From positions 1 through 44,830 of the forward strand of contig JAILZY010000022.1 of NCBI GenBank assembly GCA_023512255.1: 44,830 bases of DNA, read 5' to 3'. The notes beneath the pieces were generated by a model. The model did no database searches and was not told the origin of the DNA. It saw only the letters and a list, made by a program, of their open reading frames with translations. The first letter of the stretch is position 1, and each line of letters begins with the position of its first letter. A program made the position numbers and the translations under genes. Shown piece after piece: positions 19,073-41,961 of this stretch. The stretch is from a bacterium. GTDB lineage: Bacteria; SZUA-182; DTGQ01.

Positions 19073-19216
19073 CGTATACCCCTTTTTTATTCATTTCTCA
19101 TCAATCGTGTTTTTCAGTTCCTTGCAGACCTCACCAAAAGGGTAAACCTCACCAACAGGTCTGCCTGTGGTAGGCATGGTGCCTGCTGATGAGACAAACC
19201 ATCTTCCTTACTCCCT

Positions 19217-21160: not shown

Positions 21161-21276
21161 TATCCTTCCTCTCCTTATACCGCTGAAAAAGGTCTGGAGT
21201 AGTCTTGTACTTTCTGCCAAAAGGGCATATCCTTCATGGAAACAATCACGCCGGGGAATTATATTTCTACACTTTA

Positions 21277-21387
21277 CCTACCCTTGATGATCAACCTACC
21301 CTTGATGATCAAAAAGCTAGCCTCACACTCTCTCGGGGTTGGCTATTTTTTTGCGCTTCATACGCTATACCGCTTCATACGCTATGC
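21277..21387. repeat. Two short tandem duplications in the cooS-acsC spacer
   Basis: An 18-base unit CCTACCCTTGATGATCAA is present twice in tandem (21277-21312, exact). A 17-base unit CGCTTCATACGCTATAC is present twice (21354-21387, one difference). Both lie in the 254-base gap between acsC and cooS. Confidence 0.9.
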
Positions 21388-21414
21388 CTACTATAATGTG
21401 TATGATCCCTATGG

Positions 21415-22776: not shown

Positions 22777-22822
22777 AGTAGCTAATCTCCTTTCTGTCTT
22801 TTCATCAAAATAGGGCTTCCCC

Positions 22823-23776
22823 TTAGGCAGTAGCCATCAACTCGGCCAGAATGCTTCGCACCCTCGACAGGGCCTCAGGATGCCTGAAAACGACCAGATT
22901 CCCTCCAGCCATCAGGAAACTCAAGGCAGTGAGCACTTCCCATAGAATCCCCCTCGGCCTGACTGCTCCCCAGGCCGGCTGATCCTGTTCGGTGGCCTTG
23001 GCCTCTTTCACCTTCCAGGTTACCTCACCGATATCACAAATCATAGGCATCTGCATCATAGCGTCATTTTGCTGCAAAGCGGATAGGCGAATCCTCTCCA
23101 TGACCGAGTAGGTATATTCAAGTCCATAGCCTAGGGTACTTGACATGGCATCAATGATGATGTTTTTACTATCAAAGCCGCTCTGGGTCAGGAGGATATT
23201 CAATTGCTTAGAAAGGTTAATATCAAGGTCAGACAGGGCTACTAGTTTATGGCCATAAGCCGTGGCCACAGCAGCAAAGGTTTTATAATTCTTCTCCTGA
23301 GCTTTGCCTATGATCGAGCCGGTATTGGCGGCTACCTCGGCTACATGTTTGATCACAGCCGCATCTTTTTCCACATGGTTGCTGCCCAGAATAATTAGCG
23401 GAACCTTGATGGCCGAGAGAACCGCCTCAACTATCTTGCCCGCCTCTTGCGGGGAGCGATCGCCATTGTCAGGGTGTGTTCCGGCCAGGCGAAGGCAGAT
23501 CATGTCCGCCTTGAACTCATCCTGGCACATCCTGGCCCACTCAGCCGGATTATCCATGACCGAGCCGTAGATCTCAGTCAGTGAGGAAGCCCAATCCCCT
23601 GTCGGGTTAATGTCTTGAATTTCAAGAGCCAGAGGCACGGTCGAGACTGCCTTGCCCTCAAACGAAAGAAAGGGAAGAGTCTCCTCGCCTCCCATAATCA
23701 GCTTGTGCTGATTTCGGCCAACCTCAACTTGATTTATTTTCCCATTATATGCTTCTTTTGGCACGGTATAGGCCAT
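22823..23776 (-). CDS. acsD: Corrinoid iron-sulfur protein small subunit
   Basis: The 317-residue delta subunit pairs with AcsC to bind the cobamide. It has the family start (PKEAYNGKINQVEVG) and the TIM-barrel segments DMICLRLAGTHPDN, VPLIILGSNHVEKD, IIIDAMSSTLGYGLEYTYSV and GNLVVFRHPEALS. The ATG at 23776 follows AAGGAG at good spacing. The gene sits in the conserved acsE-acsD-acsC order. Confidence 0.97.
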   Translation of the reverse strand: MAYTVPKEAYNGKINQVEVGRNQHKLIMGGEETLPFLSFEGKAVSTVPLALEIQDINPTGDWASSLTEIYGSVMDNPAEWARMCQDEFKADMICLRLAGTHPDNGDRSPQEAGKIVEAVLSAIKVPLIILGSNHVEKDAAVIKHVAEVAANTGSIIGKAQEKNYKTFAAVATAYGHKLVALSDLDINLSKQLNILLTQSGFDSKNIIIDAMSSTLGYGLEYTYSVMERIRLSALQQNDAMMQMPMICDIGEVTWKVKEAKATEQDQPAWGAVRPRGILWEVLTALSFLMAGGNLVVFRHPEALSRVRSILAELMATA

Positions 23777-23810
23777 ACTCTTCTTCTCCTTAATGAAGAT
23801 CGCCGCCTGC

Positions 23811-23890
23811 TGACATTATTATATAATTATATTTATTATATTAAATTAATAATTATAATTATTAATTATATAATAATTATAATAACATAA
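23811..23890. other. Extremely AT-rich spacer between acsE and acsD
   Basis: About 75 consecutive bases are almost only A and T, built from ATTATATAATTAT-type units. They can fold as a long imperfect hairpin (arms like ATTATTATATAATTAT and its complement). This contrasts with the coding sequence around it. It could be a processing site, an internal promoter for acsDC-cooS-acsB, or a slippage product. Confidence 0.6.
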
Positions 23891-23921
23891 TCAGAGTACG
23901 ACCATCTTCATTCATATATGC

Positions 23922-24707
23922 TTAACAGGTTTCCAGATATGAATGACAATAGAGACTTTGATTCAAAATCACCGAGGTTGTCTTGATCGCCTGAATTATA
24001 GCCGGATCCAGGGTATCGACAATGGCTGCGGTCAAGCCCATCGTAATGGCCATAGTCAGGAAGGTATGATTGATCAGGCTACGCATGTTCTCAGGAGCGC
24101 CATTAGAGATATTGCTCAATCCGATCACGCTGTTCATTGGAGGATCGTTCATCTCCCGAAACATCCTGATCGCCTCAAGGATTTCCTTTACCTGCTCCTG
24201 CTGGCCGTTGATTGGGACCATGATCGGATCAAGGTAAATATCCTCCATCGGTACCCCGTGCTCGGCGCCAGCAGCCATAATCTCAGCCGCCAGAGCGCAC
24301 CGCTCGTTGGCATCGCGGGGCAGGCCGCCACTGGCCAGGGTCAGGCCGATAATCATGGCATTATATTTGGCCGCCAGCGGCATCAGCAGGCTGAGCCGCT
24401 CAGGATCAGCCGAGGTCGAGTTTATCATCGCCTTCCCCTTGTGGACCGAAAGCCCAGCCTCAATCGCCTCAACATTAGTCGTATCAAGACAGAGCGGCAC
24501 ATCCACAACTTTTTGGATATTCTCCACCAGCCAGGCCATCAGCTCCGGGCCATCTTTTCGGGCCGGACCGATATTGATGTCAAGCATATTGGCACCTCCC
24601 TTGACCTGCCTGATGGCCATGTCCTTGATCGGCTCAAAGTTTCTCTCCTTAAAAGCCTCGGCAAAAAGCTTGGTTCTGACATTAATTCGCTCTCCTATAG
24701 CCAGCAT
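23922..24707 (-). CDS. acsE: Methyl-THF:corrinoid iron-sulfur protein methyltransferase
   Basis: The 261-residue pterin-binding TIM-barrel protein transfers the methyl group from 5-methyltetrahydrofolate to the cobalt of AcsCD. The motifs are ERINVRTKLF, GANMLDINIGPAR, VPLCLDTTNVEAIEAGL, MINSTSADPERL and GLSNISNGAP, which contains the catalytic Asn. Length is normal and it begins with an ATG after AAAGGAGG. The 234 bases upstream (24708-24941) contain no gene I can support, and may hold an internal promoter. Confidence 0.97.
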   Translation of the reverse strand: MLAIGERINVRTKLFAEAFKERNFEPIKDMAIRQVKGGANMLDINIGPARKDGPELMAWLVENIQKVVDVPLCLDTTNVEAIEAGLSVHKGKAMINSTSADPERLSLLMPLAAKYNAMIIGLTLASGGLPRDANERCALAAEIMAAGAEHGVPMEDIYLDPIMVPINGQQEQVKEILEAIRMFREMNDPPMNSVIGLSNISNGAPENMRSLINHTFLTMAITMGLTAAIVDTLDPAIIQAIKTTSVILNQSLYCHSYLETC

Positions 24708-24941
24708 AATTCTACTTCCTCCTTTCTATTTTGGGGTTTCTATATTTTGTACGGAATCCCGTTTGTGTCCATCATATTCTATTTATTTAAATATTTCACT
24801 CTTTAATATCGCGCTGCTCCTTTATACTCCTTACATACCGTTAATTCCTCTTTTCGGACGCTCATAAATAGCAGGCTTTTTAAGGTACGGTAATCCTCTC
24901 TGCAGATACTGGATCATACTGATATCATATGCAATCACTGA

Positions 24942-25724
24942 TTATGCAGCCACTGAAAGAGCCTTTTCATTGCCCACCAGCTCAAGCATGATTTCCGAAA
25001 CCCGCCGAACCGCCACCGAGCTCTCCGGCAGGCTGACTAGGGGCTTTCCCTCAAGATCAAACTGAACGATCAGCTCGTCAGCAGGGATAGTGCCTAGAAA
25101 CTGCACCTTCATCCCAGCAATCTGATGCCCAAAGGCCTCGGGCAACTCGCCGATGGCCCGGTTGACCACCAGAAATTTTTTCCGAATCGAAAGCCCGAGC
25201 TCCTCAATAATGTCTAAAATCCGCTGCACAGTCCTAAGACCGCGCACGGTCTCATCCGTGGCAATAACCAGGGCATCGACATCTTGAGTTGTCCTTCGGC
25301 TCAAGTGCTCAAGGCCAGCCTCATTGTCCATGACTACATAGCGATAGCTTTGGCTGATCTTCTCGCTGTACTTGCGAATCAGGTGATTGGCATAGCAATA
25401 GCAGCCAGGGCCTTCAGGCCTGCCCATAGACATGAGATCATAGCCGTGGCCCTCAACCAAAGTCTCATGAATCCTCTGCTCAATGTACTGCTCCTTGGTT
25501 ACTCCGATCGGCAGGTCCTTGACCTCATCAATGGCTTTTTCCCGAAGCTGACCAACAGATATTCCCTTCTCCATTCCCAAGACCTCGTGAAGATTAGCGT
25601 TAGCATCAGCATCAATCGCCAAGACCGGAGATAGCCCGCTCTTCACCAGGTAGCGGATCATTAGGCCGCATAGGGTGGTTTTCCCTGTTCCGCCCTTTCC
25701 AGCTACTGCAATCGTATAACCCAT
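24942..25724 (-). CDS. cooC: CO dehydrogenase nickel-insertion ATPase CooC
   Basis: The 260-residue MinD/SIMIBI-class ATPase helps insert nickel into CODH (and possibly ACS as AcsF). A deviant Walker A motif, AGKGGTGKTT, starts at residue 8, DADANANLHE follows, and the dimer-interface metal-binding CxC is GPGCYCYAN (C108, C110). VMDNEAGLEHLSRRTT is the switch region. It lies between the flavoprotein gene and acsE in the same direction. Confidence 0.95.
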   Translation of the reverse strand: MGYTIAVAGKGGTGKTTLCGLMIRYLVKSGLSPVLAIDADANANLHEVLGMEKGISVGQLREKAIDEVKDLPIGVTKEQYIEQRIHETLVEGHGYDLMSMGRPEGPGCYCYANHLIRKYSEKISQSYRYVVMDNEAGLEHLSRRTTQDVDALVIATDETVRGLRTVQRILDIIEELGLSIRKKFLVVNRAIGELPEAFGHQIAGMKVQFLGTIPADELIVQFDLEGKPLVSLPESSVAVRRVSEIMLELVGNEKALSVAA

Positions 25725-25787: not shown

Positions 25788-26627
25788 TCAATACTCTGGT
25801 GGCATATTTTGCAACTCTGCATAAGTAAAAACTGGGCCATCTTTGCATACGTATTTGTGGCCGATATTGCACCGACCACACTTGCCAAGGCCGCACTTCA
25901 TTCTCATCTCAAGGGAATTCAAAATCTTATCCGCAGCAAAGCCAAGCTCAAATAAAATAGGAATAGTAAACTTGATCATAATCGGCGGGCCGCAGACTAT
26001 GGCTATAGCCTCCTTGGCGCTTGGGGCGACCTGCTTGACCACAGCCGGCACAAACCCCTCTTTCCCCTGCCAGCCAGGCTCGGCCTTATCCACCGTGATA
26101 TGGACATTTAAGTCTTTCCGCTGACTCCAGGCTTCAAGCTCCTGGCGGTAGATAAGATCCCCCGGTGTTCTAGCCCCATAGATAATAGTGATATCGCCGT
26201 AATCTTTCCTTCGCTCCTCACCCATAAGATACACAGCCAGCGCTCTCAAGGTAGTGAAGGCAAAGCCGCCTCCCACAATGACAATATGCTTCCCTTTGAG
26301 TTCCTCCATCGGAAAGCCGTTCCCGTACGGCCCCCGCAAGCCCACAATCCGGCCGGGCGAGGAATTGTGCAGGTCCTTAGTTACCACTCCCATCTTTTTG
26401 ACCGTGAACATTACTGTATCACCCTCGGTGGGAGAGGAGGCAATGCCGATCGGGATCTCCCCTGCTCCGGCAATGGAGATTTCGGCAAACTGACCCGGAT
26501 GATAATCAAAGGACTGGCGATCTTGCGGGTCCAAGAAGGAAAAGACAAAGCTTTTGATGTCTCTTCCTACCGTCTCATCAATAATCTTCTCTATCCTGAC
26601 TCTCTTTGGCAGATAGGGATTGTTCAT
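25788..26627 (-). CDS. FAD/NAD(P)-binding electron-transfer subunit (FlxA/AsrB-like)
   Basis: The 279-residue ferredoxin-reductase-type protein has an N-terminal FAD barrel (YHPGQFAEISI, GIASSP, VGLRGPYGNGFP), an NAD(P)-binding half (IVIVGGGFAFTTLRAL, VCGPPIM) and a C-terminal [2Fe-2S] site with C245, C250, C253 and C261 (KCGLGKCGRC, YVC). The same architecture occurs in FlxA of Flx-Hdr complexes, AsrB of sulfite reductase, and hydrogenase gamma subunits. Its position after MvhD and two Fe-S proteins and near HdrA supports the Flx role: feeding NAD(P)H electrons to, or taking them from, the Hdr module. ATG after AGGTGA. Confidence 0.85.
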   Translation of the reverse strand: MNNPYLPKRVRIEKIIDETVGRDIKSFVFSFLDPQDRQSFDYHPGQFAEISIAGAGEIPIGIASSPTEGDTVMFTVKKMGVVTKDLHNSSPGRIVGLRGPYGNGFPMEELKGKHIVIVGGGFAFTTLRALAVYLMGEERRKDYGDITIIYGARTPGDLIYRQELEAWSQRKDLNVHITVDKAEPGWQGKEGFVPAVVKQVAPSAKEAIAIVCGPPIMIKFTIPILFELGFAADKILNSLEMRMKCGLGKCGRCNIGHKYVCKDGPVFTYAELQNMPPEY

Positions 26628-26648: not shown

Positions 26649-27665
26649 CTATCTCAAGCAGTAAGCTGATACAATCTGTCTGATATCCATATTGACCGGA
26701 CACTCCCTGATACATCTGCCACAGCCGACACAGGCGATCTGTCCGTTATTGACCTTAAAGTAATTGAATTTGTGCATAACCCGCTGTCGAAGGCGCTCTT
26801 TGCCGCAGGGTCTTGGATTGTGGCCGGAGGTATGGAGGGTAAACAGGGAGAATTGACAGGAATCCCACAGCCTGACCCGCCTCCCTTGGCCGCAGCGGTT
26901 CTCATCCTGGATATCGAAACAGTGGCAGGTAGGACAAACAAAGGCACAGGTAGCACAGCCAAGGCACCTCTCGTAAATTCTCTGCCAGAGAGGATCATCA
27001 AAGGCTGCGGACAGCCTGCTGAAGGCTTCCTCGGCCGAAAAAATAGGGGGAAGCTTGGCCAGGACAGCTTGCTCTTGCTCGCTGGCTTTGGCTAGATCCT
27101 CTGCTGCGGCCTCCTCAACATGCGGCAGCTTAGCCAAAAGCTCCCGCCCCCGATCAGTTATCGGCCTCACCAGATAGCGGTCTCCAAGGTCTTGCCAAAG
27201 CATATCCAGGCCGGTCGTATCCGAAGGGCTGCCGCCGGTCGAGCTACAAAAGCAGGTGCTTTGCGGTCTGGTGCAGGCCAAGCCAATCATCACCTTACTT
27301 TTTCGCCTCTCCAGGTAGTAAACATCCTGATAGCGCGGCTCATCAAAGATAGGGTCCAACAGGGCTATTGCCCTGGCATCACAGGGTCGGATGCCCAATA
27401 GGTAGCCAGGTTTTACCTCGTTAGGTGGCTCGAAGATTTTGTGCCCTTCCTTTTGGTAGTAGAAAAGCACTTCAGCCTGTGGGAAAAAACATCCCTTGGG
27501 GCTGAGCTTGCTGTTGGCATAATCAAGGCAGGCAGCCTCAGCAGAGGGTAGGGAAGCAAAGAGAACATAATCATCCTTCCTGACCGGAGCAACTACCTCA
27601 CCCCTCTGCATCAGGTCCTCGATCACAGCCTTAAGATTTGTCTTGGTGATAATTCCAGTATCCAT
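26649..27665 (-). CDS. 4Fe-4S electron-transfer subunit (FlxB/AsrA-like)
   Basis: The 338-residue protein has an N-terminal alpha/beta region with GYLLGIRPCDARAIALLDP and GLACTRPQSTCFCSS, typical of the AsrA/hydrogenase-beta family. Two [4Fe-4S] motifs follow: CLGCATCAFVCPTCHC (about 237-252) and CVGCGRCIRECPVNMD near the C-terminus. It likely passes electrons between the FAD/NAD subunit encoded 21 bases downstream and MvhD/HdrA. The ATG at 27665 has only a weak ribosome binding site. Confidence 0.82.
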   Translation of the reverse strand: MDTGIITKTNLKAVIEDLMQRGEVVAPVRKDDYVLFASLPSAEAACLDYANSKLSPKGCFFPQAEVLFYYQKEGHKIFEPPNEVKPGYLLGIRPCDARAIALLDPIFDEPRYQDVYYLERRKSKVMIGLACTRPQSTCFCSSTGGSPSDTTGLDMLWQDLGDRYLVRPITDRGRELLAKLPHVEEAAAEDLAKASEQEQAVLAKLPPIFSAEEAFSRLSAAFDDPLWQRIYERCLGCATCAFVCPTCHCFDIQDENRCGQGRRVRLWDSCQFSLFTLHTSGHNPRPCGKERLRQRVMHKFNYFKVNNGQIACVGCGRCIRECPVNMDIRQIVSAYCLR

Positions 27666-27900: not shown

Positions 27901-28866
27901 TCACTTTTCAGTGATACAGGTTTGCGGATCATCTGTGCGATAAGTACCCAGGGCCGGCATCTCCTCCAGAGAGAGTCCCGGCACATACTGATAAAGCTCC
28001 TTGACCTCTTTCTGAAGCTTTTTGTTGAGCAGCCGCAAATCAAGACCCATTGGGCAGGCTCGACTACAGGCGCCGCAGTCCACACAACGGCCAGCCAGAT
28101 GAAAGGCCCGCATGATGTGATAAGCCAAGACATCCTCCGTGGCTGTAGTTTTGCCAAACCACTGAGGCTGGGTCTGATCCACAATGCACTCCTGGCAATA
28201 GCACAATGGGCAGGCGCTTCGACAGGCATAACAGCGGATGCATTTTTCAGCCATGTCCATAAAATGCCGCCATCGCTCCTGACTGCTCAGTGCCTCAAAG
28301 GAGCGAACCTGGGCAAATTCATCCTCAACCTCCCGCTCCGGCATCCTCTGGCCGATGAAAATATCCGCTATTGGGGCGCTCCGATGAGTACAGGTTTGAC
28401 AGGAGTCTGCCAGGAGCCCGCTAAGCTCAAGCTGCACCTGGCCTCCTGACTCTGTCTCCAGCCCCAGAGAATCTCCAGCCAAGGAAAAGCCCCTGATCTG
28501 ATCGACTTCCACCGCCAAGGCCAGCCTCCTTCGATCAATGATGCCAGAGCAGGCAAGTCCAACAATCACCAGCCGATCCCTGCTGATCTGGTTTTCCTGC
28601 ACAGCCACAACGGCCGCTCTGGCATCACAGCCCTTAGCTATAATAGCCACTCTCTCTTTTCGCCGCGGCAGATAGACACTCAAATTATTCTCACAAAAAG
28701 GATTCCAAACCAGCAAAGAAGCCTCCTGGGGTGTGCGGATAAAAGCAGGAGCTGTCCGCACAGGGGAGGTCCCAGCCTGATAGCCAAGGACAAGATCGAC
28801 CTTCCCCTCCCTCAGCAGCGATTCTGCCACAGTTTGGATATTCCGGGTTATTTCCTCTGACCACAT
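27901..28866 (-). CDS. 4Fe-4S dicluster electron-transfer subunit (FlxC-like)
   Basis: The 321-residue protein has a coenzyme F420 hydrogenase beta-like N-terminal part (VAIIAKGCDARAAVVAVQEN, RLVIVGLACSG) and a middle SCQTCTHR site. Two [4Fe-4S] motifs follow: CIRCYACRSACPLCYC (about 210-225) and CVDCGACSRACPMGLD (about 262-277). Order and content match FlxC in FlxABCD-HdrABC clusters. It resembles the next gene in domain plan, so the two may be ancient paralogues. The ATG at 28866 has a poor ribosome binding site, 78 bases after the mvhD gene. Confidence 0.78.
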   Translation of the reverse strand: MWSEEITRNIQTVAESLLREGKVDLVLGYQAGTSPVRTAPAFIRTPQEASLLVWNPFCENNLSVYLPRRKERVAIIAKGCDARAAVVAVQENQISRDRLVIVGLACSGIIDRRRLALAVEVDQIRGFSLAGDSLGLETESGGQVQLELSGLLADSCQTCTHRSAPIADIFIGQRMPEREVEDEFAQVRSFEALSSQERWRHFMDMAEKCIRCYACRSACPLCYCQECIVDQTQPQWFGKTTATEDVLAYHIMRAFHLAGRCVDCGACSRACPMGLDLRLLNKKLQKEVKELYQYVPGLSLEEMPALGTYRTDDPQTCITEK

Positions 28867-28944: not shown

Positions 28945-29409
28945 TCATGATATTGTTTTGACTAGCTTGTTAGCTGGCCCGAGTTTCTTTACTTCATCCA
29001 CAATATGCTTGACCAGACGGCCAAAATTTTCACCCTCAGCCGCCGAGACCCAGGAGAAAAATACCCTTCCCTTCTCAAGACCGAGATAATCCAGCAGGCG
29101 GCTGAAAATTTCAAATTTTCGCCGAGCATAGTAGTTGCCGCTGACATAGTGGCAGTCCCCCGGATGGCACCCTGAGACCAGCACCGCATCAGCTCCTGTC
29201 TGGAGAGCCTTCAGGATAAACACCGGATTAATTCTCCCCGAGCAGGGCACCCGAATGATGCGAATGTTTGGCGGATACTGAATCCGGCTGATGCCAGCAA
29301 GGTCTGCTCCAGCATAGCTACACCAGTTGCAGAGAAACGCTACCACCTTCGGCTGCCAGGATCCATCTTGACCGCTCTTTTCCCCCTGGCTGCACCTTTC
29401 CTCTGTCAT
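28945..29409 (-). CDS. MvhD/FlxD-type iron-sulfur subunit
   Basis: The 154-residue product belongs to the methyl-viologen-reducing hydrogenase delta family, which carries a [2Fe-2S] cluster and links HdrA to its electron donor. Motifs are VVAFLCNWCSYAGADLAG, IIRVPCSGRINPVFILKAL and VLVSGCHPGDCHYVSGN. Its ATG overlaps the stop of the giant hdrA (ATGA), so the two are translationally coupled and surely partners. It is one of two such genes in the cluster; the other (37258-37671) is more divergent. Confidence 0.92.
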   Translation of the reverse strand: MTEERCSQGEKSGQDGSWQPKVVAFLCNWCSYAGADLAGISRIQYPPNIRIIRVPCSGRINPVFILKALQTGADAVLVSGCHPGDCHYVSGNYYARRKFEIFSRLLDYLGLEKGRVFFSWVSAAEGENFGRLVKHIVDEVKKLGPANKLVKTIS

Positions 29410-32400
29410 AAGGCCTCCATCATCTCAAATATCTGTTGGTTAGTAAATCCCTTAACATCAAGTGCCCCGCAACGACAGGTGGCTGCACAGGCGCCGCACC
29501 CTTTACACAGGGCCTCATTAACCTTGGCACATCCCTCCTGCCGATCCACTTCGATCGCCTTATAAGCACACACCAGCTCACACAGCCCACAGGCCGTGCA
29601 GCGCTTCTTATCGACCTTGGCTGTCTGCCCTTGGGTCTCAATGACTTTTTTGCTCAAAACCACCGAAGCCCTGGCCGCAGCAGCTTTAGCCTGAGCAATG
29701 CTCTCATCTACCGATTTTGGCGCATGGGCCAGACCGCAGACGAAAACGCCATCAGTGGCAAAATCAACCGGCCGAAGCTTCATGTGCGCCTCAAGGAAGA
29801 ACCCATCCTCATTCACCGGAACTTTTAGCATCTGGGCCAGGTCCCGATTACTAGCAGGAGCTAAAATGGCCGGTGCCAGAGCCAAAATATCGGCTGACAA
29901 AATTAGCTGCCGCCCAAGGATTGGCTCCTTTATCTGAATCTTTATCTCCCCTGCTCCGTTGGATGACACTACAGGCTTTTTATCCAAATCGTAGCGGAGG
30001 AAGATTACGCCCTTATCCCGCGCTTTTCGGTAATACTCCTCTCTTAGGCCATAGGTGCGGATATCCCGATACAGGATATAAATATTGACCTTCGGGTTGA
30101 TCTCCAAAAGGCGCAAGGCATTCTTAATGCTCTGACTGCAACAGACGCGACTGCAATACATCCTGCCCTCTTCCCTTGAGCCGACACACTGAATCATGAC
30201 CACATTGCGGCTGTTTAAAACCCTCAGATCTCGCCGGGCGATCATAGCCTCAAGATCGCTGGCCAATACCACCTTCTGGCTCTGTCCATATAAATACTCA
30301 GAGGGTGAATACTCCACCGCACCAGTAGCCACAACAATCGCCCCATGTTGGCAGGAGAGCTTCCTTCCCCCCGATGACTGAATGGTTGAGGTAAAGTTAC
30401 CCATAAAGCCGCTTACCTCAGTCAATTCAGAGTTTAAATTGACCCGAATCAGAGGATGTCGCCTGACCTGATCGATCAGGCTCTCAAGATGCTTTTGAAA
30501 ATCACGCTCTTGGAGAGTAGAGAAAATTTTGTTAGCCACCCCGCCGAGCCGTGATTCTTTTTCCACCAGATGAACATCAAAACCCTGATCAGCCAACGAC
30601 AAGGCCGCACTCATGCCAGCCACTCCACCGCCGACCACCAGGGCCGCCGAGTTAACCGGCAAAGACATCCGCTTCAGCGGCTCGATCAAAGCCGCCTTAT
30701 AAACCGCCATTCGAACCAGGTCCTTAGCCTTCTCCGTAGCCTTCTCCCGCTCAAACATATGCACCCAAGAGCACTGATCCCGGATATTGGCCATCTCAAA
30801 GAGATATGGATTTAGCCCTGCCTCTCTGATGGTGGCCTGAAAGAGCGGCTCATGGGTTCTAGGCGAGCAGGAGGCCACAATCACCCGGTTCAGCCGGTAT
30901 TCCTTGATAATCTCAACCATCTTCTGCTGGGTATCTTCCGAGCAGGTATAGAGATTATCAGCCACATAGACGACAAAGGGAAGGGTAGCCGCATACTCTC
31001 TAACCTTCGGGACATCAACAAACCCGCCGATATTGATTCCGCAGTGGCAGACAAAGACCCCAATCCGAGGAGGCTCACCGCTAACATCCCGCTCCGGCGG
31101 ATAAGTCTTTTCCACAACCAGGGTATTTCGGACCGAAGCCAGAAGAGCCGAAGCCTCGCCTGCTGCTCCGCTGGCCTGCATGACCGTCTCGGGGATATCC
31201 TTCGGGCTAACAAAGGCTCCGCAGGTGAAAACCCCAGGCCGTGAGGTCCGCAAAGGAGAAAGACTCTCGGTCCGGCAAAATCCGTAGCGGTTAAGATCAA
31301 TGTTCAGCCGCCTAGCCATCTCCTGGACACTGCTTGGAGGCTCAAACCCTACGGCCAAAATGACCAGGTCAAACTGCTCGGCTACCAGCAGGCCGTCCTC
31401 CCGGATATACTTCAGGATCAGGTCCTGGGTTTCCGGCACCTGCTCAACCTTTGACACCAGCGATTTAATGAATCTCACCCCGTACTCTTTTTCTGCCCGA
31501 TTGACATACTTGTCAAAATCCTTTCCATAGGCCCTCATATCATTATAGAAGATAGTGGGCTCGATGCTGCGCACATGCTCTTTGGCAATAACTGCCTCCT
31601 TGATGGAGTACATACAGCAGACCGAAGAGCAATAATCATTATGGCAAGAGGTATCCCGCGAGCCAACACACTGAATGAAGGCGATGCGCTTTGGCTCACA
31701 GTGGTCAGAAGGCCGGACAATATGCCCCTTATAGGGACCAGAGGCACTCAGGATGCGCTCAAACTCGATGCTGGTTACTACATTCGGATAGCGACCATAG
31801 CCAAAGTTGTTCTTCAGCCTGGCGTCAAATTCCTCATAGCCCGGAGCCAGGATAACCGCGCCGACCTCAAGCTCTATGAGCTCATCCCTCAACTCATGAT
31901 TGACCGCCCCAGCCTTGCAGGTAGCTACACATTCCATACACTCTGAGCAGATGCCGCAATTCAGACATCGCTTAGCCTCCTCAACAGCCATCTCCTCGCT
32001 CAGCCCAAGCTCAACCTCTCTAAAATTCCCCCGGCGCTCCTCAAGACCGAGACTTGGCATATGGACCCTCAGCCTCGGCTCGACATCCCACCGATCAAGG
32101 TCAGGCTCTGCCTGCTCGAAAACCTCCTTCTCTCTTCCTGCCCGAAGGTCCTCTCCCCTGAGGAAGCGGTCAATTGAGATAGCTGCCTGGCGACCTTCGG
32201 CCATAGCCTCAACCGCAATCCCAGGCCCAGTTACAACCTCACCAGCAGCAAAGATGCCCTCTATATTGGTGGCTTTGGTGAGCGGGTCAACCTCAAGGCC
32301 ACCATACTTGGCCACTTTCAACCCTGATCCCTCAGGCAGAAAAGACAGGTCCGGAGACTGGCTCAAAGCCGGGATGACCATATCCACAGGCATGACAAAC

Positions 32401-33875
32401 TCAGACCCAGCAATCGGCACCGGCCTCCTTCGGCCCTGGCTGTCTGGCTCGCCAAGTTCCATACGAATGCATTTTAAGCCGCAAACTCGACCATCTTGAC
32501 CAATAATCTCAACCGGCGCAGTCAGATAAACCAGCTTGATTCCTTCCAACTCAGCCGCCTCGATCTCATCCGGCAGGGCTGGCATCTCACTCCTTGTTCT
32601 CCGATAGACAATGGTGACCTCGGAGGCACCAAGCCGCCAGGCGACTCTAGCGGCATCAATGGCCGTATTTCCCCCACCAATGACCGCAACCCGCTGGCCG
32701 CCAATTTCAACTTTCTGCCCCAGGTTTACCCGGCGCAAAAAGTCGGTGCAGTGAATAACGCCGGCAAACTCATCCTCGCCAGCCACACCCAGCTTCAGGC
32801 TCTTGTGGGCTCCAGTAGCCAGGAGAATGGCCTGATATCCTTGGGCCTTCAGATCATCGAGGGTAAGATTAGGCCCAAGAGGGGAATTTAGCCTGATGTC
32901 CACGCCAAGAGATTTGATCGCCTCAATCTGGGACTGCAAAATATCACGAGGCAGACGGTATTCTGGAATCCCTACAGCCAACATGCCGCCAGCTACCGGA
33001 AGGGCCTCAAAGATGGTAACCGGATACCCTTTCAGGGCAAGATCATGGGCCGCAACCAGGCCAGCAGGTCCTGCGCCGATAATGGCTACTTTCTCAAGTC
33101 GCCTCGATGAAGAGGACTCGGCAGAAGCCGAGGGTGGTGATGAGAGCGGCGGCAGATTATGGGCGGCAGCATAATCAGCCACAAAGCGCTTTAAGGCGGC
33201 AATGGACAGGGGCTGATCGATCTGGCCGCGCTTGCAGGCCTCCTCACAAGGGTGGGCGCACACTCGGCCACAGATGGCGGGCAGGGGATTGTCCCTGATG
33301 ATGAGCTGATAGGCCTGAGCAAATTTTTTATCTTTAATTAACGCAATGTAGCCTTGAGCATTCTGCCCCAGCGGGCAGGTGAGCTTGCAGGGAGATTTGC
33401 CACGCTTGTCAATAGAATAGCGGTTCGGAATAGCTTGAGCAAAAGGCTTGTAGATCGCCTTTCGACAAGTCAACCCCTGCTCAAATTCATTAGGCACCTC
33501 AACCGGGCACTGCTTTTCACAGTCGCCGCAGCCAGTGCATTTGCTCTCATCAACATAGCGGGAGTGCTTCAGCACCCTGACCCGGAAATTCCCCGCCTCC
33601 CCTTCAAGCTGCTGGACCTCAGCATTGGTGATGATACTGATATTCTGATGCCTTCCGGTATCCACCAGCTTGGGGGCCAGGATACACATCGAGCAGTCAT
33701 TGGTTGGAAAGGTCTTGTCTAGCTGAGCCATGACCCCGCCAATGCTCAATCCCCGCTCGACGAGGTAAACCTTATATCCAGAATCCGCTAGATCAAGAGC
33801 TGACTGGACCCCAGCCACACCTCCCCCAACCACCATGACCGCTCCGATCTTTTTTTGATCAACCTTAAGCCCCAT
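29406..33875 (-). CDS. Giant HdrA-GltD-HdrA fusion flavoprotein
   Basis: The ATG at 33875 with an upstream AGAGGAG gives 1489 residues. Residues 12-145 are an HdrA start: FAD motif VVGGGVAGVQSA, NDCSMCILAPK cluster site, and ferredoxin motif CTGCGDCEKQCP. Residues about 155-580 are a glutamate-synthase-small-subunit-like NADPH module: CKLTCPLGQNAQGYI, CGRVCAHPCEEAC, FAD motif IIGAGPAGLVAAHD, NADPH motif VIGGGNTAIDAARV and IFAAGEVVTGPG. Residues 635-925 resume HdrA with CLNCGICSECMECVATC, QCVGSR and YCSSVCC. Residues 937-1489 are a second HdrA-like unit (GVFVCHCG, VVGGGVAGMSAA, QCVGSR, YCSRVCC) ending in two [4Fe-4S] motifs. HdrA bifurcates electrons at its FAD; three flavin sites are expected here. 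Confidence 0.93.
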   Translation of the reverse strand: MGLKVDQKKIGAVMVVGGGVAGVQSALDLADSGYKVYLVERGLSIGGVMAQLDKTFPTNDCSMCILAPKLVDTGRHQNISIITNAEVQQLEGEAGNFRVRVLKHSRYVDESKCTGCGDCEKQCPVEVPNEFEQGLTCRKAIYKPFAQAIPNRYSIDKRGKSPCKLTCPLGQNAQGYIALIKDKKFAQAYQLIIRDNPLPAICGRVCAHPCEEACKRGQIDQPLSIAALKRFVADYAAAHNLPPLSSPPSASAESSSSRRLEKVAIIGAGPAGLVAAHDLALKGYPVTIFEALPVAGGMLAVGIPEYRLPRDILQSQIEAIKSLGVDIRLNSPLGPNLTLDDLKAQGYQAILLATGAHKSLKLGVAGEDEFAGVIHCTDFLRRVNLGQKVEIGGQRVAVIGGGNTAIDAARVAWRLGASEVTIVYRRTRSEMPALPDEIEAAELEGIKLVYLTAPVEIIGQDGRVCGLKCIRMELGEPDSQGRRRPVPIAGSEFVMPVDMVIPALSQSPDLSFLPEGSGLKVAKYGGLEVDPLTKATNIEGIFAAGEVVTGPGIAVEAMAEGRQAAISIDRFLRGEDLRAGREKEVFEQAEPDLDRWDVEPRLRVHMPSLGLEERRGNFREVELGLSEEMAVEEAKRCLNCGICSECMECVATCKAGAVNHELRDELIELEVGAVILAPGYEEFDARLKNNFGYGRYPNVVTSIEFERILSASGPYKGHIVRPSDHCEPKRIAFIQCVGSRDTSCHNDYCSSVCCMYSIKEAVIAKEHVRSIEPTIFYNDMRAYGKDFDKYVNRAEKEYGVRFIKSLVSKVEQVPETQDLILKYIREDGLLVAEQFDLVILAVGFEPPSSVQEMARRLNIDLNRYGFCRTESLSPLRTSRPGVFTCGAFVSPKDIPETVMQASGAAGEASALLASVRNTLVVEKTYPPERDVSGEPPRIGVFVCHCGINIGGFVDVPKVREYAATLPFVVYVADNLYTCSEDTQQKMVEIIKEYRLNRVIVASCSPRTHEPLFQATIREAGLNPYLFEMANIRDQCSWVHMFEREKATEKAKDLVRMAVYKAALIEPLKRMSLPVNSAALVVGGGVAGMSAALSLADQGFDVHLVEKESRLGGVANKIFSTLQERDFQKHLESLIDQVRRHPLIRVNLNSELTEVSGFMGNFTSTIQSSGGRKLSCQHGAIVVATGAVEYSPSEYLYGQSQKVVLASDLEAMIARRDLRVLNSRNVVMIQCVGSREEGRMYCSRVCCSQSIKNALRLLEINPKVNIYILYRDIRTYGLREEYYRKARDKGVIFLRYDLDKKPVVSSNGAGEIKIQIKEPILGRQLILSADILALAPAILAPASNRDLAQMLKVPVNEDGFFLEAHMKLRPVDFATDGVFVCGLAHAPKSVDESIAQAKAAAARASVVLSKKVIETQGQTAKVDKKRCTACGLCELVCAYKAIEVDRQEGCAKVNEALCKGCGACAATCRCGALDVKGFTNQQIFEMMEAL

Positions 33876-33882
33876 GATCCTG

Positions 33883-34398
33883 TTACTCCTCTTGTAGTTT
33901 CTCAATAGCCATCTTTAATAAATTCATCCGGTTGATTGGGCGGTCTTCTTTCTTCTGAGAAAAAATAGCCCGCACCATCTGATGCCGCATCTTTTGCGAC
34001 AGGCGGTCAATTTCATCAATATGCTTGACAAAGGAGGGGTGAACATACTTTTCCCGCACCGCCATGTCACGCAAAACACCCATAATGTCAGTAAACTTTA
34101 CATTCTGCGGACATCGCGCATAACAGGTATAGCAGAGCGAACACAGCCAGATCAGATTGGAAGATAAAACCTCCTCCTTCATACCCAATAAGATCATCCT
34201 GATCAACTTGCGGGGGTTGTACTCATTGTCAACCTCAGTCGCCGGACAGCCAGCCGTGCAGATGCCGCAGGAGAAGCATAACTTGAGATTCTCTCCCCCG
34301 GGTTGCTCAGAGACCTCATACTTGAATTTCGGATCCAATTCTAAGATATTGACTGGAGCTTTTCCCTCGATGGTGGCACTTTCTTTTTCTTCTGACAC
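33883..34398 (-). CDS. hdrC: Heterodisulfide reductase subunit C-like protein
   Basis: The 171-residue product carries two [4Fe-4S] motifs, CFSCGICTAGCP (about 41-52) and CSLCYTCYARCP (about 86-97), with the HdrC spacing and an EYNPRKLIRMILLG segment. HdrC normally passes electrons from HdrA to HdrB, but no gene with the HdrB CCG repeats is in the window. It starts with GTG at 34398, AAAGGAGG lying about 14 bases upstream, and ends 7 bases before the giant hdrA start. It is the first gene after the toxin-antitoxin patch. Confidence 0.9.
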   Translation of the reverse strand: MSEEKESATIEGKAPVNILELDPKFKYEVSEQPGGENLKLCFSCGICTAGCPATEVDNEYNPRKLIRMILLGMKEEVLSSNLIWLCSLCYTCYARCPQNVKFTDIMGVLRDMAVREKYVHPSFVKHIDEIDRLSQKMRHQMVRAIFSQKKEDRPINRMNLLKMAIEKLQEE

Positions 34399-34516: not shown

Positions 34517-34942
34517 TTAGAGTATAATTAATTTTATTTCCTGAATATTATCAAAATCTCTATAATTAATTGTTGCTATTTGATCAATTTTATTCCATAA
34601 TCCAATACTGATTATTTCAAAATCATGAATTTTTAATCCTGTAGATTTATATTTTCGCAGCAATTCTCTGAAAATAGCAAACGAACCCTCTGTAGGATAT
34701 AAGACTGTTAGAACGTTAATAAAATCTCCTACGGCTGCTAGCGCCTCCTCAATGGGTAAGAAAGTAACACTAGATCTTGTAACTACAGTTAAAAATTCTG
34801 ATAAGTTTTTAGAAGTTGTAAATAAGTTATGATTAGAATTTAATAATAACTCTCGAGAGCGATAATAAAACTTTGAATCCTCATCAATTGCATAAACTAA
34901 AATATTTGTATCAACAAGTATATTATTTGTATGCTTTTTCAT
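34517..34942 (-). CDS. vapC: PIN-domain VapC-like toxin
   Basis: The 141-residue PIN-domain ribonuclease has the acidic active-site set at D11 (LVDTNILVYAID), E49 (NLSEFL), D107 (KIHDFEI) and D129. VapC toxins cleave RNA, often tRNA, and are held inactive by a cognate antitoxin. The start overlaps the upstream antitoxin gene by 20 bases. Codon use is distinctly AT-rich compared with the neighbouring Wood-Ljungdahl genes, which suggests transfer. It sits in the middle of the hdr/met cluster in the same orientation. Confidence 0.88.
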   Translation of the reverse strand: MKKHTNNILVDTNILVYAIDEDSKFYYRSRELLLNSNHNLFTTSKNLSEFLTVVTRSSVTFLPIEEALAAVGDFINVLTVLYPTEGSFAIFRELLRKYKSTGLKIHDFEIISIGLWNKIDQIATINYRDFDNIQEIKLIIL

Positions 34943-35278: not shown

Positions 35279-35650
35279 CTAATCCCAGGCCAAAAGAGCT
35301 TTTGCCTGCTGAGCATGAAAGCCTACATCCCACCACTTCCTACTAACAAGCATGTCCTGGTCAGCTTTTTGCAAAAACCTTTCGGCAAGTTTAAGACTTC
35401 TCATAACCCGCTCTCGCCCTTTTAGTCTTTGCTTTATTGATAACCGTCCCTTTAACTTGAAGCCCATTCAGCAAAACCAGCCTCACTGACCACCAGAATA
35501 TCTGCTTGAGAATGCGCATTAGCTGGATAGCGTCCGTGGAGTCGAAACATCTCCTTTCGGCGGCTTTTGCCCGATTTCTCAACAACAAGAAAATCTAACT
35601 CAGACTGCTCACCAGCCTCACCACAAAACCCTAAAAGCCTTACCCCCCTC
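35279..35650 (-). pseudogene. Relic of an MNT/HEPN toxin-antitoxin pair
   Basis: Directly after the metF stop, one frame reads GEAGEQSELDFLVVEKSG, then DILVVSEAGFAEWASS and stops at 35452. This matches the central part of a minimal nucleotidyltransferase antitoxin but lacks its GSRARG-type N-terminus. In another frame, 35404-35279 reads AERFLQKADQDMLVSRKWW then DVGFHAQQAKALLAWD, the start of a HEPN toxin that stops after about 41 of the usual 120 residues. Both halves are truncated, so neither is likely functional. The 175 bases to its left (35103-35278) hold nothing I recognise. Confidence 0.7.
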
Positions 35651-36596
35651 ACTCTGCGGCTACCTCTGGCCGCGGCCAAAGCCCAGCCTCCCTGACAACC
35701 GTCGGCACGATCTCTTCCCACTCAACAGCCATAATGTGCACCCCGCGAATGCCGGGAATTTCCCGCACAGCCTGAATCAGCTCAACACAAATCTTTACCC
35801 CTTCGGCCTTGGCGTCCTTTGCCCCTTCCATCCTGCGGATAAGCTCATCCGGGATGCTCATTCCAGCCACATTATTTTTCATGTACTGAAGCACCTTAGG
35901 GGATTTGATCGGCATGATCCCAGCCAGGATAAAGACCTTCTCATGCAGCCCCTGATCAACCACCATCTCCATCCAGCGCTTGAATTTAGGCAGATCAAAG
36001 ATGCACTGAGTCTGAACAAAGTCAGCCCCAGCTTTAATCTTTTTAGCTAGCCGAACCACACGAAATTCAAACGGATCAGCGAAGGGATTGGCAGCTACGC
36101 CCAAAAACATCCGAGGCTCCAGGAGGTCGGATTTTTTCGTGTTACGAATTTCCTCACCGCACTGAAACACCTTCTCATCCCGCATCCTTTTAGCCATCTG
36201 CACCAGTTGAATAGAGTCCAGGTCATAGACATTCTTGGCCTGGGGATGGTTGCCAAAGCTCTGATGATCCCCACTCAGACACAGGAGGTTTCGCAAGCCA
36301 AGCACATAGGCCCCCAGAATATCAGACTGCATGGCCAGCCGGTTGCGATCCCGGCAGGTCATCTGAATAATCGGCTCAAGGCCCTCATCCAGGGCGATTT
36401 TCCCAGCAGCAATACTAGATACCCGGACAATGGCCGTCTGGTTGTCGGTGATATTGACCGCATCCGCAAAGCCGCGCAAAATTCCCGCCTTATGCTTGAT
36501 CAATTGAATATCTGCACTCTTTGGTGGCCCAAGCTCTGCAGTAGCCACAAATTCCCCTTGGATCAAAAGCTTTTCCAGTCGGCTCCCTGCCTTCAT
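35649..36596 (-). CDS. metF: Methylenetetrahydrofolate reductase, copy 1
   Basis: The ATG at 36596 overlaps the metV stop (ATGA) and has GGAGGA upstream, giving 315 residues; the frame is open 87 bases further but inside metV. It reduces 5,10-methylene-THF to 5-methyl-THF, the donor for AcsE. Conserved segments are FVATAELGPPK (catalytic Glu), VNITDNQTA, QMTCRDRNRLAMQSDILGA, LCLSGDH, FLGVAANPF, GADFVQTQCIFD and ILAGIMPI. It pairs with the metV immediately upstream. It differs clearly from the second metF at 40956. Confidence 0.95.
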   Translation of the reverse strand: MKAGSRLEKLLIQGEFVATAELGPPKSADIQLIKHKAGILRGFADAVNITDNQTAIVRVSSIAAGKIALDEGLEPIIQMTCRDRNRLAMQSDILGAYVLGLRNLLCLSGDHQSFGNHPQAKNVYDLDSIQLVQMAKRMRDEKVFQCGEEIRNTKKSDLLEPRMFLGVAANPFADPFEFRVVRLAKKIKAGADFVQTQCIFDLPKFKRWMEMVVDQGLHEKVFILAGIMPIKSPKVLQYMKNNVAGMSIPDELIRRMEGAKDAKAEGVKICVELIQAVREIPGIRGVHIMAVEWEEIVPTVVREAGLWPRPEVAAE

Positions 36597-37261
36597 AGAC
36601 ACATATCCTCCCTGATCACCTTTCGCGGCCCTCCATTCCGACTCCTTGACCAGTCTTTGGCAGGCATAATCTCTTCGAGGCATCCGAGTCGGCCAAGGCT
36701 CTTTAAGCGCTCATAAATCAAATGCCAGCCACAGTCAATCTCTTTATTGATTTCACACTTGCCATTTTGCGATCCCCCGCAGGGGCCGTTCAGCAGGCTT
36801 TTTGAGCAGCGAGAAATAGGACAGATGCCACCGGTCTTATCCAGAATGCACTGGCCACAGGCTTGACAGCGCTCAACCCACACCCCCTGTCGCTCCGGCA
36901 GCCCCAGCAGCTTGGTATTCAGGGCCGGCACAACCGCAAGGTTGGGAAACTGCTCGGCTATGGTCTGAACACCGATTCCGCATCCCATCGAAATCAGAAG
37001 ATCATGCCCTCTGACTGTGCTTTGGAGCGAGTCCACAAACTCTTTCTCACACTGGCGCTCAATGCTGATCTCATCTACCTGCACTTTTTTGCCCCTGGCC
37101 CTGGCTGCAAGCCGCAGACTGCAAGCTAAAATAGCCACCTCCTTGGCTCCGCCAGCCAAACAAACCGTAACGCAGGTATCACAGCCAATGACCAAAATAT
37201 TCTGATACCCTTCAGTCATGGGGATAATTTCAGCTATATCTTTCTGTTCTGCAACAATCAT
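36593..37261 (-). CDS. metV: MetV-type methylenetetrahydrofolate reductase partner, copy 1
   Basis: The 222-residue protein is the MTHFR C-terminal/zinc- and Fe-S-binding partner MetV. An N-terminal VIGCDTCVTVCLAGG and SMGCGIGVQTIAEQFP precede a Cys-rich part: CQACGQCILDKTGGICPIS, KSLLNGPCGGSQNGKCEI and DCGWHLIYERL. In Moorella, MetV with MetF forms the core of an Hdr-linked reductase. Overlaps of four bases with both mvhD (upstream) and metF (downstream) show tight coupling. Confidence 0.93.
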   Translation of the reverse strand: MIVAEQKDIAEIIPMTEGYQNILVIGCDTCVTVCLAGGAKEVAILACSLRLAARARGKKVQVDEISIERQCEKEFVDSLQSTVRGHDLLISMGCGIGVQTIAEQFPNLAVVPALNTKLLGLPERQGVWVERCQACGQCILDKTGGICPISRCSKSLLNGPCGGSQNGKCEINKEIDCGWHLIYERLKSLGRLGCLEEIMPAKDWSRSRNGGPRKVIREDMCL

Positions 37262-37671
37262 GGTTTCACCTTTATCGGACTTGGCCCCAGGCTCTTGATG
37301 CTTTCATTGCCCTGTCGAACCAGATCCAAAAATTGAGTCCATTCCAGCTCGGACAGATAAAAAAATCGCAGCCGCTCTTTTTCAATGCCGATCTTCTCCA
37401 GCAAAGCGGCCGTATGCTCGATCCTCTTCCCTGCCCGCACATTCCCTAGCAGAAACCGGCAGCTATCCGGATGGCAGGCAAAGACAAAAACTCCATCAGC
37501 CCCCTCTTCAAAAGCCTTCAAGATATGGATGACTTCGAGTTTTCCCGAACAGGGAAGCCGGCAGATGCTGATATTGGAGGGATACCCTTCCTGCCTCGCC
37601 CCTGCGGTATCTGCTGCCCGATAGGCAGAATTTTCACAACAAAAAGCCACAATGGCTGGTGTAAAGTCCAT
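37258..37671 (-). CDS. MvhD-like iron-sulfur subunit, copy 2
   Basis: The 137-residue MvhD-family protein has VAFCCENSAYRAADTAGA, ICRLPCSGKLEVIHILKAF and VFACHPDSCRFLLGN. The first motif has CCENS rather than the CNWC of the other copy, and the second and third are typical. It likely bridges the HdrA-like proteins encoded just upstream to MetFV. The stop overlaps the metV start by four bases, and it begins 13 bases after the HdrA-like gene. Confidence 0.9.
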   Translation of the reverse strand: MDFTPAIVAFCCENSAYRAADTAGARQEGYPSNISICRLPCSGKLEVIHILKAFEEGADGVFVFACHPDSCRFLLGNVRAGKRIEHTAALLEKIGIEKERLRFFYLSELEWTQFLDLVRQGNESIKSLGPSPIKVKP

Positions 37672-37684: not shown

Positions 37685-39472
37685 TTACAAGGTTAGTTCA
37701 GAGAAAATCTGATCATCTGAATACTGCACCATCTCAATCGCCTTGGCCGGACACTCCCCGGCACAGATTCCGCACCCCTGACAGGCCTGTGGGATAACCC
37801 TGGCTCCCCATTTCTGCCCAGCTTTAACCTCTCCGAATTCAATCGCCCGGTGCGGACAGGTACGAATGCAGGTCAAACACAAAGCGCACTTATCAGTGTT
37901 GATGACTACCTTTTGCTCCACGGCAAGGTTTGGTCGGGATAGGAGGGAGAAGACAGCCATAGCCACTGACCTAATATCATTAAGCATCTCGCCCCCATCC
38001 TCCACCCCGTGACAGGAGCCAACCACAAATACTCCTCTCCGGTTTGAGAGATTAGGCTTAAGGTGAATATTCCCCTGGTAAAAAGAGCTAATGCCAGCCA
38101 GATCAACCCTGAGAATGCTCTGTAGGGTTTCGGTCCCAAGGCTTGGGAGAACCTCATCCTCAAGAGCTAAAAGATCAGCCTGAATCAGGATGGGATAGCC
38201 ACCATCATCTTCCCCACTTGCGCTTTCCCTAATACAGTCGGCTAGAGCTGAATCATATACTCTAACCTTGATAACTCCCTTCTCAAGGCTCACCTGAGGA
38301 GGCCTACTTTCCGGTGTGCGGAAAAACAAAACCCCGGATTGCCGAGCCAACCGATAAAGATCCTCAAGACCAGTGCCGCAGACAATGATATCTGAGGCCA
38401 CAATCGCCACCTCAGCCTTAAAGCGCCGCCTCAAGAGGATGGCTTGATTTAAAGCCATAATGCTCGCCCGTTTGACAAAAGGGGCGACCAATGATTTTTC
38501 TCCCTGCGGCCCATCACCACCTAGGATAAAGCAAACGTGCTTGGCCCGGCGCTCGGCAGTAATCATCATCCGCTCAAGTCTCTCTGGCTCGGCCTCGATC
38601 ATCTTCTGAAGCCGCCCAAGGCTGACTATCCGGCTATAAGAGCCTAATTTAGCCAAATTCGCCCCATCCTCAAGCCGAGAGCCAGAAGCCACCACAATGC
38701 TTCCAACCTCAACGAGCCGCTCCCTGCCCTGAGTGTCTAGCACAACCCGAAAAGCCCCGACGCCGCCAGCCACTTCCCTGACCTCAGTGGAGGTTAAAAG
38801 CTCGATCTTTTTATGGCTAAGCTCTTTCACAAGAGCAGAAAAATCATGCCTCTGGCCACCTGTGTCCTGGCCACTACTGCTGCCGCCATTACCTAGAATA
38901 GTGCAGGGAGTTGGCAAAAAAGCCTCTCTCTCTCCTTCCGGCCGAGGTTGGCTGTCAATCAGAAGCGGCTGAATCCCAAGCCGGTGAAGCTCCAGGGCTA
39001 TCCGAACGCCGCTTTCTCCTGCGCCGATAATCAGGGCCGAAGAGCTCATCCTGGCCTGCACCATATCGACTGGTTTGGCCAAGGCCACCCGGTGGATAGC
39101 TGCCTTGAGCATCCGCTCGGCCTTGGGCAGACACTCTTTTTTGTCCCGACACACCCAGACACACCCCTCGCGGAGATTGGCTATGGTCATCAGGGAGCGA
39201 TTGAGTCCTGCTTCCTCAATTGCCTGCCTGAATTTTAGCTCGTGCTGATGCGGCGAGCAGCCAGCAATAACCACACGCTCACAGCCTGAGCGGGCGATTT
39301 TGATCTTAAGCCACTCAAGGCCACTCTTGGTACAAAGAAAGCCGCACTCATCAACCGAGCTAACACCAGGCTCCTTAGCCGCAGAGGCCAATAAAGCCCT
39401 GGTATCAAAATAATCATTCATCATATGGCCGCAGGTGCACAAAAATACCCCGATCTTGGGCGAACTATCCAT
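37685..39472 (-). CDS. HdrA-like subunit, C-terminal-type, partly degenerate
   Basis: The 595-residue protein is colinear with the second HdrA unit of the giant fusion: IGVFLCTCGHMMNDYF, VVIAGCSPHQHELKFRQAI, FAD motif LIIGAGESGVRIALEL (150-155) and two C-terminal [4Fe-4S] motifs (CALCLTCIRTCPHRAIEF, CQGCGICAGECPAKAIEM). The conserved QCVGSR...YCSRVCC cluster site is lost; the corresponding stretch reads CFILGGDGPQGEKS (314-327) with no Cys set. It may retain FAD and the ferredoxin relay only. AGGAGGT lies five bases before its ATG, inside the previous gene, which it overlaps by 8 bases. Confidence 0.88.
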   Translation of the reverse strand: MDSSPKIGVFLCTCGHMMNDYFDTRALLASAAKEPGVSSVDECGFLCTKSGLEWLKIKIARSGCERVVIAGCSPHQHELKFRQAIEEAGLNRSLMTIANLREGCVWVCRDKKECLPKAERMLKAAIHRVALAKPVDMVQARMSSSALIIGAGESGVRIALELHRLGIQPLLIDSQPRPEGEREAFLPTPCTILGNGGSSSGQDTGGQRHDFSALVKELSHKKIELLTSTEVREVAGGVGAFRVVLDTQGRERLVEVGSIVVASGSRLEDGANLAKLGSYSRIVSLGRLQKMIEAEPERLERMMITAERRAKHVCFILGGDGPQGEKSLVAPFVKRASIMALNQAILLRRRFKAEVAIVASDIIVCGTGLEDLYRLARQSGVLFFRTPESRPPQVSLEKGVIKVRVYDSALADCIRESASGEDDGGYPILIQADLLALEDEVLPSLGTETLQSILRVDLAGISSFYQGNIHLKPNLSNRRGVFVVGSCHGVEDGGEMLNDIRSVAMAVFSLLSRPNLAVEQKVVINTDKCALCLTCIRTCPHRAIEFGEVKAGQKWGARVIPQACQGCGICAGECPAKAIEMVQYSDDQIFSELTL

Positions 39473-41864: not shown

Positions 41865-41961
41865 CCTCTACTCAAATCCTACCATCATCTGTCCGAAGCT
41901 AGATCTAAAAGCACAATCTTATTAGGTGTTTGTTATGAGAAAGATCTGTCCCGCCCCAGCA

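Follow-up and report, generated by a model that had tools for sequence, protein, structure and literature searches.

In the HdrA protein of Moorella thermoacetica (162.8 kDa), a GltD module interrupts the N-terminal TrxR-like and ferredoxin domain, and a second HdrA occupies residues 922-1487; the chain has been assigned eight clusters, three sites for FAD and one for NAD(P)H, with E696/K750 and E1204/K1246 as bifurcation residues (PMC9430772). Its domain-by-domain description dates from 2022, and an NADH:viologen assay was reported earlier (PMC9430772). The arrangement HdrCBA-MvhD-MetVF is classed as Type IV MTHFR, according to the summary that PMC9430772 gives of Mock et al. (2014). Transfer of electrons from NADH to methylene-THF was not observed in Moorella, ferredoxin was found not to be the second carrier (PMC13040438, PMC8578096), and menaquinone has been proposed as co-reductant (PMC13040438). 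The second carrier of Moorella-type methylene-THF reductase has been in question since 2014 and is still called unknown in papers from 2026.

GltD-fused HdrA proteins were named HdrL in 2009, as heterodisulfide reductase/glutamate synthase fusions of Desulfobacterium autotrophicum (PMC2702500). For type III HdrA, introduced in 2025 for ANME-1 and Bathyarchaeota, a nucleotide port in place of ferredoxin was proposed (PMC12054007). An FlxABCD-HdrABC system is known from Desulfovibrio (Ramos et al., 2015, as cited in PMC12054007).

Domain architecture of the HdrA-GltD-HdrA protein

In the window, the 44,830-nucleotide stretch of DNA analysed here, an HdrA-GltD-HdrA fusion was identified by its open reading frame and domain matches on the minus strand (29406..33905). 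The reading frame runs from a TTG start at 33905 to 29406, contains no internal stops and encodes 1499 aa; an alternative ATG at 33875 yields the intact 1489-residue chain of HdrA, GltD and second HdrA that a preliminary description had seen. Residues are numbered here in the 1499-aa form (P0001). Full-length copies of 1492 aa were present in a genome from the same genus (G001, 88% identity) and in one from another genus of the same family (G002, 77% identity). These copies and approximately 90 collinear homologues ruled out an assembly join of separate genes, which the preliminary description had considered. The HdrA-GltD-HdrA chain is a genuine single protein.

Domain blocks were placed by alignment with the solved methanogen HdrA 5odc_A, in which residues 944-1116, 24-168, 653-869 and 1359-1498 corresponded to 2-174, 147-291, 293-510 and 507-648, respectively. 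The first part of HdrA unit 1 (residues 22-168; 33402..33842, minus strand; 5odc_A 147-291) contains the FAD/TrxR domain and the first cluster of the inserted ferredoxin domain. It is followed by the GltD module (residues 168-646; 31968..33404, minus strand), assigned from domain matches, with Fer4_20, an FAD motif (GAGPAG) and an NAD(P) motif (GGGNTAID). The GltD core spans residues 168-583 and extends to a C-terminal Fe-S element at 647-663. Within the CLNCGICSECMECVATC element (residues 647-670; 31896..31967, minus strand), the putative ligands belong to the second cluster of the inserted ferredoxin domain and to a relocated GltD CxxC pair. The second part of unit 1 (residues 653-930; 31116..31949, minus strand; 5odc_A 293-510) carries the bifurcation residues E716 and K769. 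HdrA unit 2 (residues 942-1499; 29409..31082, minus strand), delimited by the same alignment, comprises an N-terminal Fe-S domain, a TrxR domain with E1219/K1261 and two C-terminal clusters.

The GltD module is thus inserted between the two clusters of the unit 1 inserted ferredoxin domain (C123-C133 / C653-C663), in agreement with the earlier view that GltD is embedded within the first HdrA. Its match to PRK12771 (NF009410; residues 161-670) scored 549.6 bits, above the curated cut-off of 516, and the HdrA2 model (NF040770) scored 1003 bits, under its curated cut-off of 1100. HdrA, GltD and ferredoxin parts could all be placed on the full protein. Both HdrA units that had been proposed are present, but neither is complete in the 5odc_A alignment: unit 1 is missing both the N-terminal domain of HdrA and its C-terminal ferredoxin domain, and unit 2 has the N-terminal, TrxR and C-terminal domains and is without the inserted ferredoxin domain.

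In ordinary Nfn/GltD proteins, the element EV.LG..EEA..EA.RCLxC forms the N-terminal start. In the fusion, it has moved to the C-terminal end of the GltD module (REVELGLSEEMAVEEAKRCLNCGICSEC), where it directly precedes and overlaps the second HdrA ferredoxin cluster. Of 92 homologues, 90-92 retained each of the six cysteines at this relocated element, and all had C173, C177, C216, C220 and C224. C647/C650 would complete the GltD cluster together with C173/C224. Conserved cysteine sets in the whole chain fit some eight to nine [4Fe-4S] clusters, and three FAD motifs were found; the expectation of three flavins and many Fe-S clusters was thus borne out at the level of motifs. In the first TrxR domain, the bifurcation Glu was present in 92/92 and the Lys in 91/92 homologues; the corresponding numbers for the second were 83/92 and 80/92. 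An AlphaFold model of residues 20-800 was confident (pLDDT 84.5, pTM 0.83), and its top PDB matches were NfnABC, Stn and Nfn.

Among the genomes compared, G403 encodes a protein of 1487 aa and 162.8 kDa with the same four residues as the published Moorella HdrA (E696/K750/E1204/K1246), in the gene order acsC-cooC-acsD-acsE-hdrC-hdrB-hdrA-mvhD-metV-metF; G403 represents Moorella thermoacetica itself or a species very close to it. The window protein and this HdrA shared 47.5% identity over 1500 columns (residues 20-1499 versus 11-1483).

Predicted nucleotide specificity of the GltD module

The nucleotide-binding element GGGNTAID...IVYRRTRSEMPA (residues 410-443; 32577..32678, minus strand) is of NADP(H) type. 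In Rossmann folds, an arginine pair versus an acidic residue at the end of the second beta strand is the usual distinction between NADP and NAD. At this position, YRR was found in 67/92 homologues, including the window protein, and CLE or similar in 25/92. YRR is common to the GltD of two Nfn proteins, two NfnABC proteins and Stn; the structure of one of the two Nfn proteins has been solved with NADP(H) bound. The NADH-oxidising Moorella HdrA carries CLE. Stn is NADPH-dependent (PMC10482914). Because the window GltD shares YRR with Nfn, NfnABC and Stn and follows the arginine rule, its port is predicted to use NADP(H), in line with the direct NADPH entry point suggested from the first inspection.

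YRR occurred in 22/22 homologues with Flx genes directly downstream versus 35/62 without them (Fisher p = 4e-5). Counted by phylogeny, this link comprised only five independent contrasts and was not significant; a phylogeny-aware correlation of the NADP signature with Flx genes was therefore dropped.

Gene neighbourhood, distribution and host genomes

All genes of the cluster described below lie on the minus strand. Directly downstream of the fusion, with a start codon that overlaps the HdrA stop, is an MvhD/FlxD-like gene (28945..29409; PF02662), followed by genes for an FlxC-like Fe-S adaptor of the FdhB/FrhB C-terminal type (27901..28866; best PDB match 7bkb_E), an FlxB/HydB-like Fe-S subunit (26649..27665; 9nez_B) and an FlxA/HydG-like FAD and NAD(P) subunit (25788..26627; 9nez_C). 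The last of these is the separate FlxA-like subunit noted previously. Further downstream, domain matches identified the CODH/ACS genes acsB, cooS, acsC, acsD, acsE and a cooC-like gene (16865..25724).

Upstream of the fusion is an HdrC-like gene (33883..34398) with two 4Fe4S motifs, which scored 95.5 bits with TIGR03290, below the cut-off of 160. A PIN/VapC-like gene (34517-34942) separates it from metF and metV (35649-37261), which were recognised by a profile match (MetF copy 1, 35649..36683) and PF12225 (MetV copy 1, 36593..37261). By similarity, no PIN/VapC-like gene was detected at the corresponding position in G001, G002 or G003. Next is a second mvhD (37258..37671), whose product has CCENS where the first MvhD has CNWCS and likely lacks one [2Fe-2S] ligand. 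A QmoB-like gene (37685..39472) and a QmoA-like gene (39465..40751) encode split equivalents of HdrA unit 2 (match to P0001 944-1495) and of HdrA unit 1 without GltD (matches to P0001 23-135 and 654-923), respectively. The QmoA-like protein has arginine in place of the bifurcation lysine (YCSRVCCKYAVR), which suggests that its flavin is non-bifurcating. A second metV-metF pair occurs at 40956-42636; the Chloroflexi cell DscP3 has likewise been reported to carry two such pairs in one cluster (PMC5736913). The Wood-Ljungdahl cluster is headed by a gene for glycine cleavage H protein (42639-43022) and FolD/FolE genes. Elsewhere in the window, a cohesin-domain protein (1664-2806, plus strand; weak PF00963) adjoins a 323-aa open reading frame without Pfam match.

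Full-length loci with the HdrA-GltD-HdrA layout numbered more than 100 and were spread over many phyla. Among named genomes, 80 loci, chosen for their similarity to the window and nearly all collinear end to end, came from Latescibacterota, Atribacterota, Thermodesulfobacteriota, Chloroflexota, Bacillota, Spirochaetota, Acidobacteriota, archaea and others. Full-length or near-full-length copies were present in approximately 16/386 genomes of a wider sample and approximately 50/399 genomes of one Bacillota phylum, which ruled out a rare architecture. The preliminary description had regarded the arrangement as unusual; it is instead widespread and, with the NADH-oxidising Moorella HdrA already described, largely characterised. 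Its placement beside acs genes is real but not new, since the Moorella hdrA gene also lies directly beside acsE. One Candidatus Thermoplasmatota contig carried two full-length HdrA-GltD-HdrA genes flanking one Flx set, and a Promethearchaeota contig carried one such gene.

Two operon types were distinguished, and 67 loci fitted neither, many for want of flanking sequence. In type A (29 loci), hdrC-hdrB-hdrA is followed by (mvhD) metV metF, as in Moorella. In type B, QmoA-like and QmoB-like genes, mvhD, usually metV metF, and hdrC precede hdrA-GltD-hdrA, downstream of which are mvhD and FlxC-like, HydB-like and HydG-like genes; hdrB is absent. Type B comprises at least 16 loci (14 scanned loci, the window and G001) in at least eight lineages, among them Bacillota, Chloroflexota, Calditrichota, Spirochaetota and Synergistota; the cultured Calditrichales strain MX18-03 is one carrier. 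In the tree, its members fell on the same side of a supported branch; acs genes were in view in 9/14 scanned loci. No description of the type B operon, with MetVF and Qmo-like genes, was found in the open-access literature searched.

The window operon encodes no HdrB or other CCG protein. A whole-genome search for CCG domains detected none in four type B genomes (G226, G287, G150 and G388), of which G150 is one 2.27-Mb contig. Genome searches of G226, G287 and G150 also detected no MqnA/D-family or UbiA-family proteins; UbiA was found in 14/14 control genomes. These results suggest that in some hosts the type B complex can run without HdrB and without menaquinone, and a menaquinone-dependent mechanism is therefore disfavoured for type B. 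RnfC was encoded in 10/10 type B genomes searched, and a search of the Moorella genome G403 detected none. The window genome contains MqnA/D-family and UbiA (menaquinone-type) genes, Rnf and hydrogenases. Its sole HdrB is encoded on contig C148, in a separate HdrA-HdrC-HdrB cluster, from which the window complex could borrow it. The canonical cluster elsewhere in the window genome (L208, 1823-7248) encodes HdrC, HdrB and a tandem HdrA that has MvhD fused to it (1159 aa).

Candidate mechanism and comparison with described systems

The window protein is a Moorella-type HdrA, with the same tandem as the neighbouring split QmoA/QmoB-like pair and with GltD inserted exactly where ferredoxin docks on unit 1. 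In the reading that we prefer, at about even odds, it would serve as flavin hub in a probably bifurcating methylene-THF reductase of the Wood-Ljungdahl pathway that needs no HdrB and has an NADPH port. Electrons from NADH would enter via HydG, HydB, FlxC and MvhD (FlxABCD-like) and reach the HdrA flavins, the NADH specificity of FlxA being assumed from family reports. In the high-potential branch, HdrC together with the QmoAB-like/MvhD2 pair would carry electrons to MetVF for methylene-THF reduction, while in the low-potential branch GltD, located where the HdrA of methanogens reduces ferredoxin, would exchange electrons with NADP(H). Favourable methylene-THF reduction could then drive an unfavourable reduction of NADP+, or possibly of ferredoxin for Rnf, and the product of NADP+ reduction may serve the cluster's own methylene-THF dehydrogenase. 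Least secure in this scheme are its direction and the identity of the low-potential partner.

Such a bifurcating role is supported by the architecture shared with Moorella HdrA, the Glu/Lys pairs in both TrxR domains, YRR, the AlphaFold matches to NfnABC and Stn, operon conservation, HdrB-free genomes and RnfC. It is weakened by the Moorella results, with no NADH to methylene-THF transfer and ferredoxin not the second carrier, by the five contrasts on which the link between Flx genes and YRR rests, and by the one HdrB of the window genome. A wider proposal, that an HdrB-free, quinone-independent Type IV MTHFR occurs in many phyla and has a second pyridine nucleotide as second carrier (NADH via Flx and NADP+/NADPH at GltD, coupled to MetVF), is put forward tentatively and would more probably fail than hold.

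Three other functions were considered. The first, a non-bifurcating conduit in which electrons of NADPH and NADH are pooled via GltD and Flx and pass through the HdrA clusters to MetVF, would make the complex a simple NAD(P)H:methylene-THF reductase. Bifurcation could not be demonstrated in Moorella (PMC13040438, PMC8578096), and the GltD flavin of StnC has lost bifurcation and merely delivers NADPH electrons (PMC10482914). However, the bifurcation Glu and Lys are kept in both TrxR domains at the frequencies given above, and we regard such a conduit as improbable. An independent transhydrogenase for NADH, NADPH and ferredoxin, Stn- or Nfn-like and co-regulated with the Wood-Ljungdahl genes without touching MetVF, would be consistent with the closeness of the GltD module to that of NfnABC and Stn, as well as with related HdrA-GltD-HdrA genes that stand beside Flx or other genes without MetVF. 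It appears unlikely, as MetV/MetF adjoins the fusion in a large share of loci and in two different operon types, and HdrC is retained. The exact Moorella Type IV MTHFR mode, in which NAD(P)H and menaquinol or another membrane carrier confurcate with an HdrB from another locus, agrees with the menaquinone proposal for Moorella (PMC13040438) and with the quinone genes and single HdrB of the window genome but is decidedly unlikely, since G226, G287 and G150 share the operon without MqnA/D-family, UbiA-family or CCG proteins.

For the question of the second carrier, the type B variant represents a stripped-down system, without HdrB and, in some hosts, without menaquinone. The nucleotide-specificity switch of its GltD module can be read from sequence and bears on which carriers the HdrA flavins couple, and thereby on the way in which acetogens that have neither cytochromes nor quinones draw an energetic benefit from the methylene-THF step.

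Moorella HdrA and the window protein share a collinear order of TrxR-Fd, GltD, TrxR, N-domain, TrxR and C-Fd over approximately 1490 aa, a Glu/Lys bifurcation pair in both TrxR domains and GltD in unit 1, and both genes have an acs neighbourhood. The Moorella system differs in that it includes HdrB, has the MetVF genes directly downstream, lacks Flx genes and RnfC and carries an NAD-type GltD with CLE, whereas the window has no operon HdrB, Flx genes downstream, QmoAB-like genes upstream and a YRR (NADP-type) GltD. In HdrL, compared by its description, HdrA is likewise joined to an NAD(P)H module resembling GltD, and mvhD comes next (PMC2702500), although some HdrL proteins contain selenocysteine or a region like fumarate reductase, and one is encoded beside dsr. 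In type III HdrA, GltD also lies within the inserted ferredoxin domain; the protein otherwise has the type I pattern with one TrxR domain, where the window protein has two, and the described types derive from HdrA A1/A6 patterns rather than from a 1490-residue tandem (PMC12054007). For type III, NAD was argued on the basis of GXGXXG; the YRR on the second strand of the window protein points to NADP instead. As far as the citing paper describes the FlxABCD-HdrABC system, FlxA-, FlxB-, FlxC- and MvhD/FlxD-like genes adjoin HdrA and HdrC as in the window, which differs in the absence of HdrB, in its tandem HdrA with GltD and in a link to MetVF and acs instead of DsrC. The closest solved relatives of the GltD module are those of StnC and NfnABC (8oh5, 9bov, 9n5u; 39-46% identity, YRR), which are fused to NuoG-like units and not to HdrA units. 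With the protein layout already known, what looks new is its setting, an HdrB-free operon type with two predicted nucleotide ports, for NADPH and NADH.
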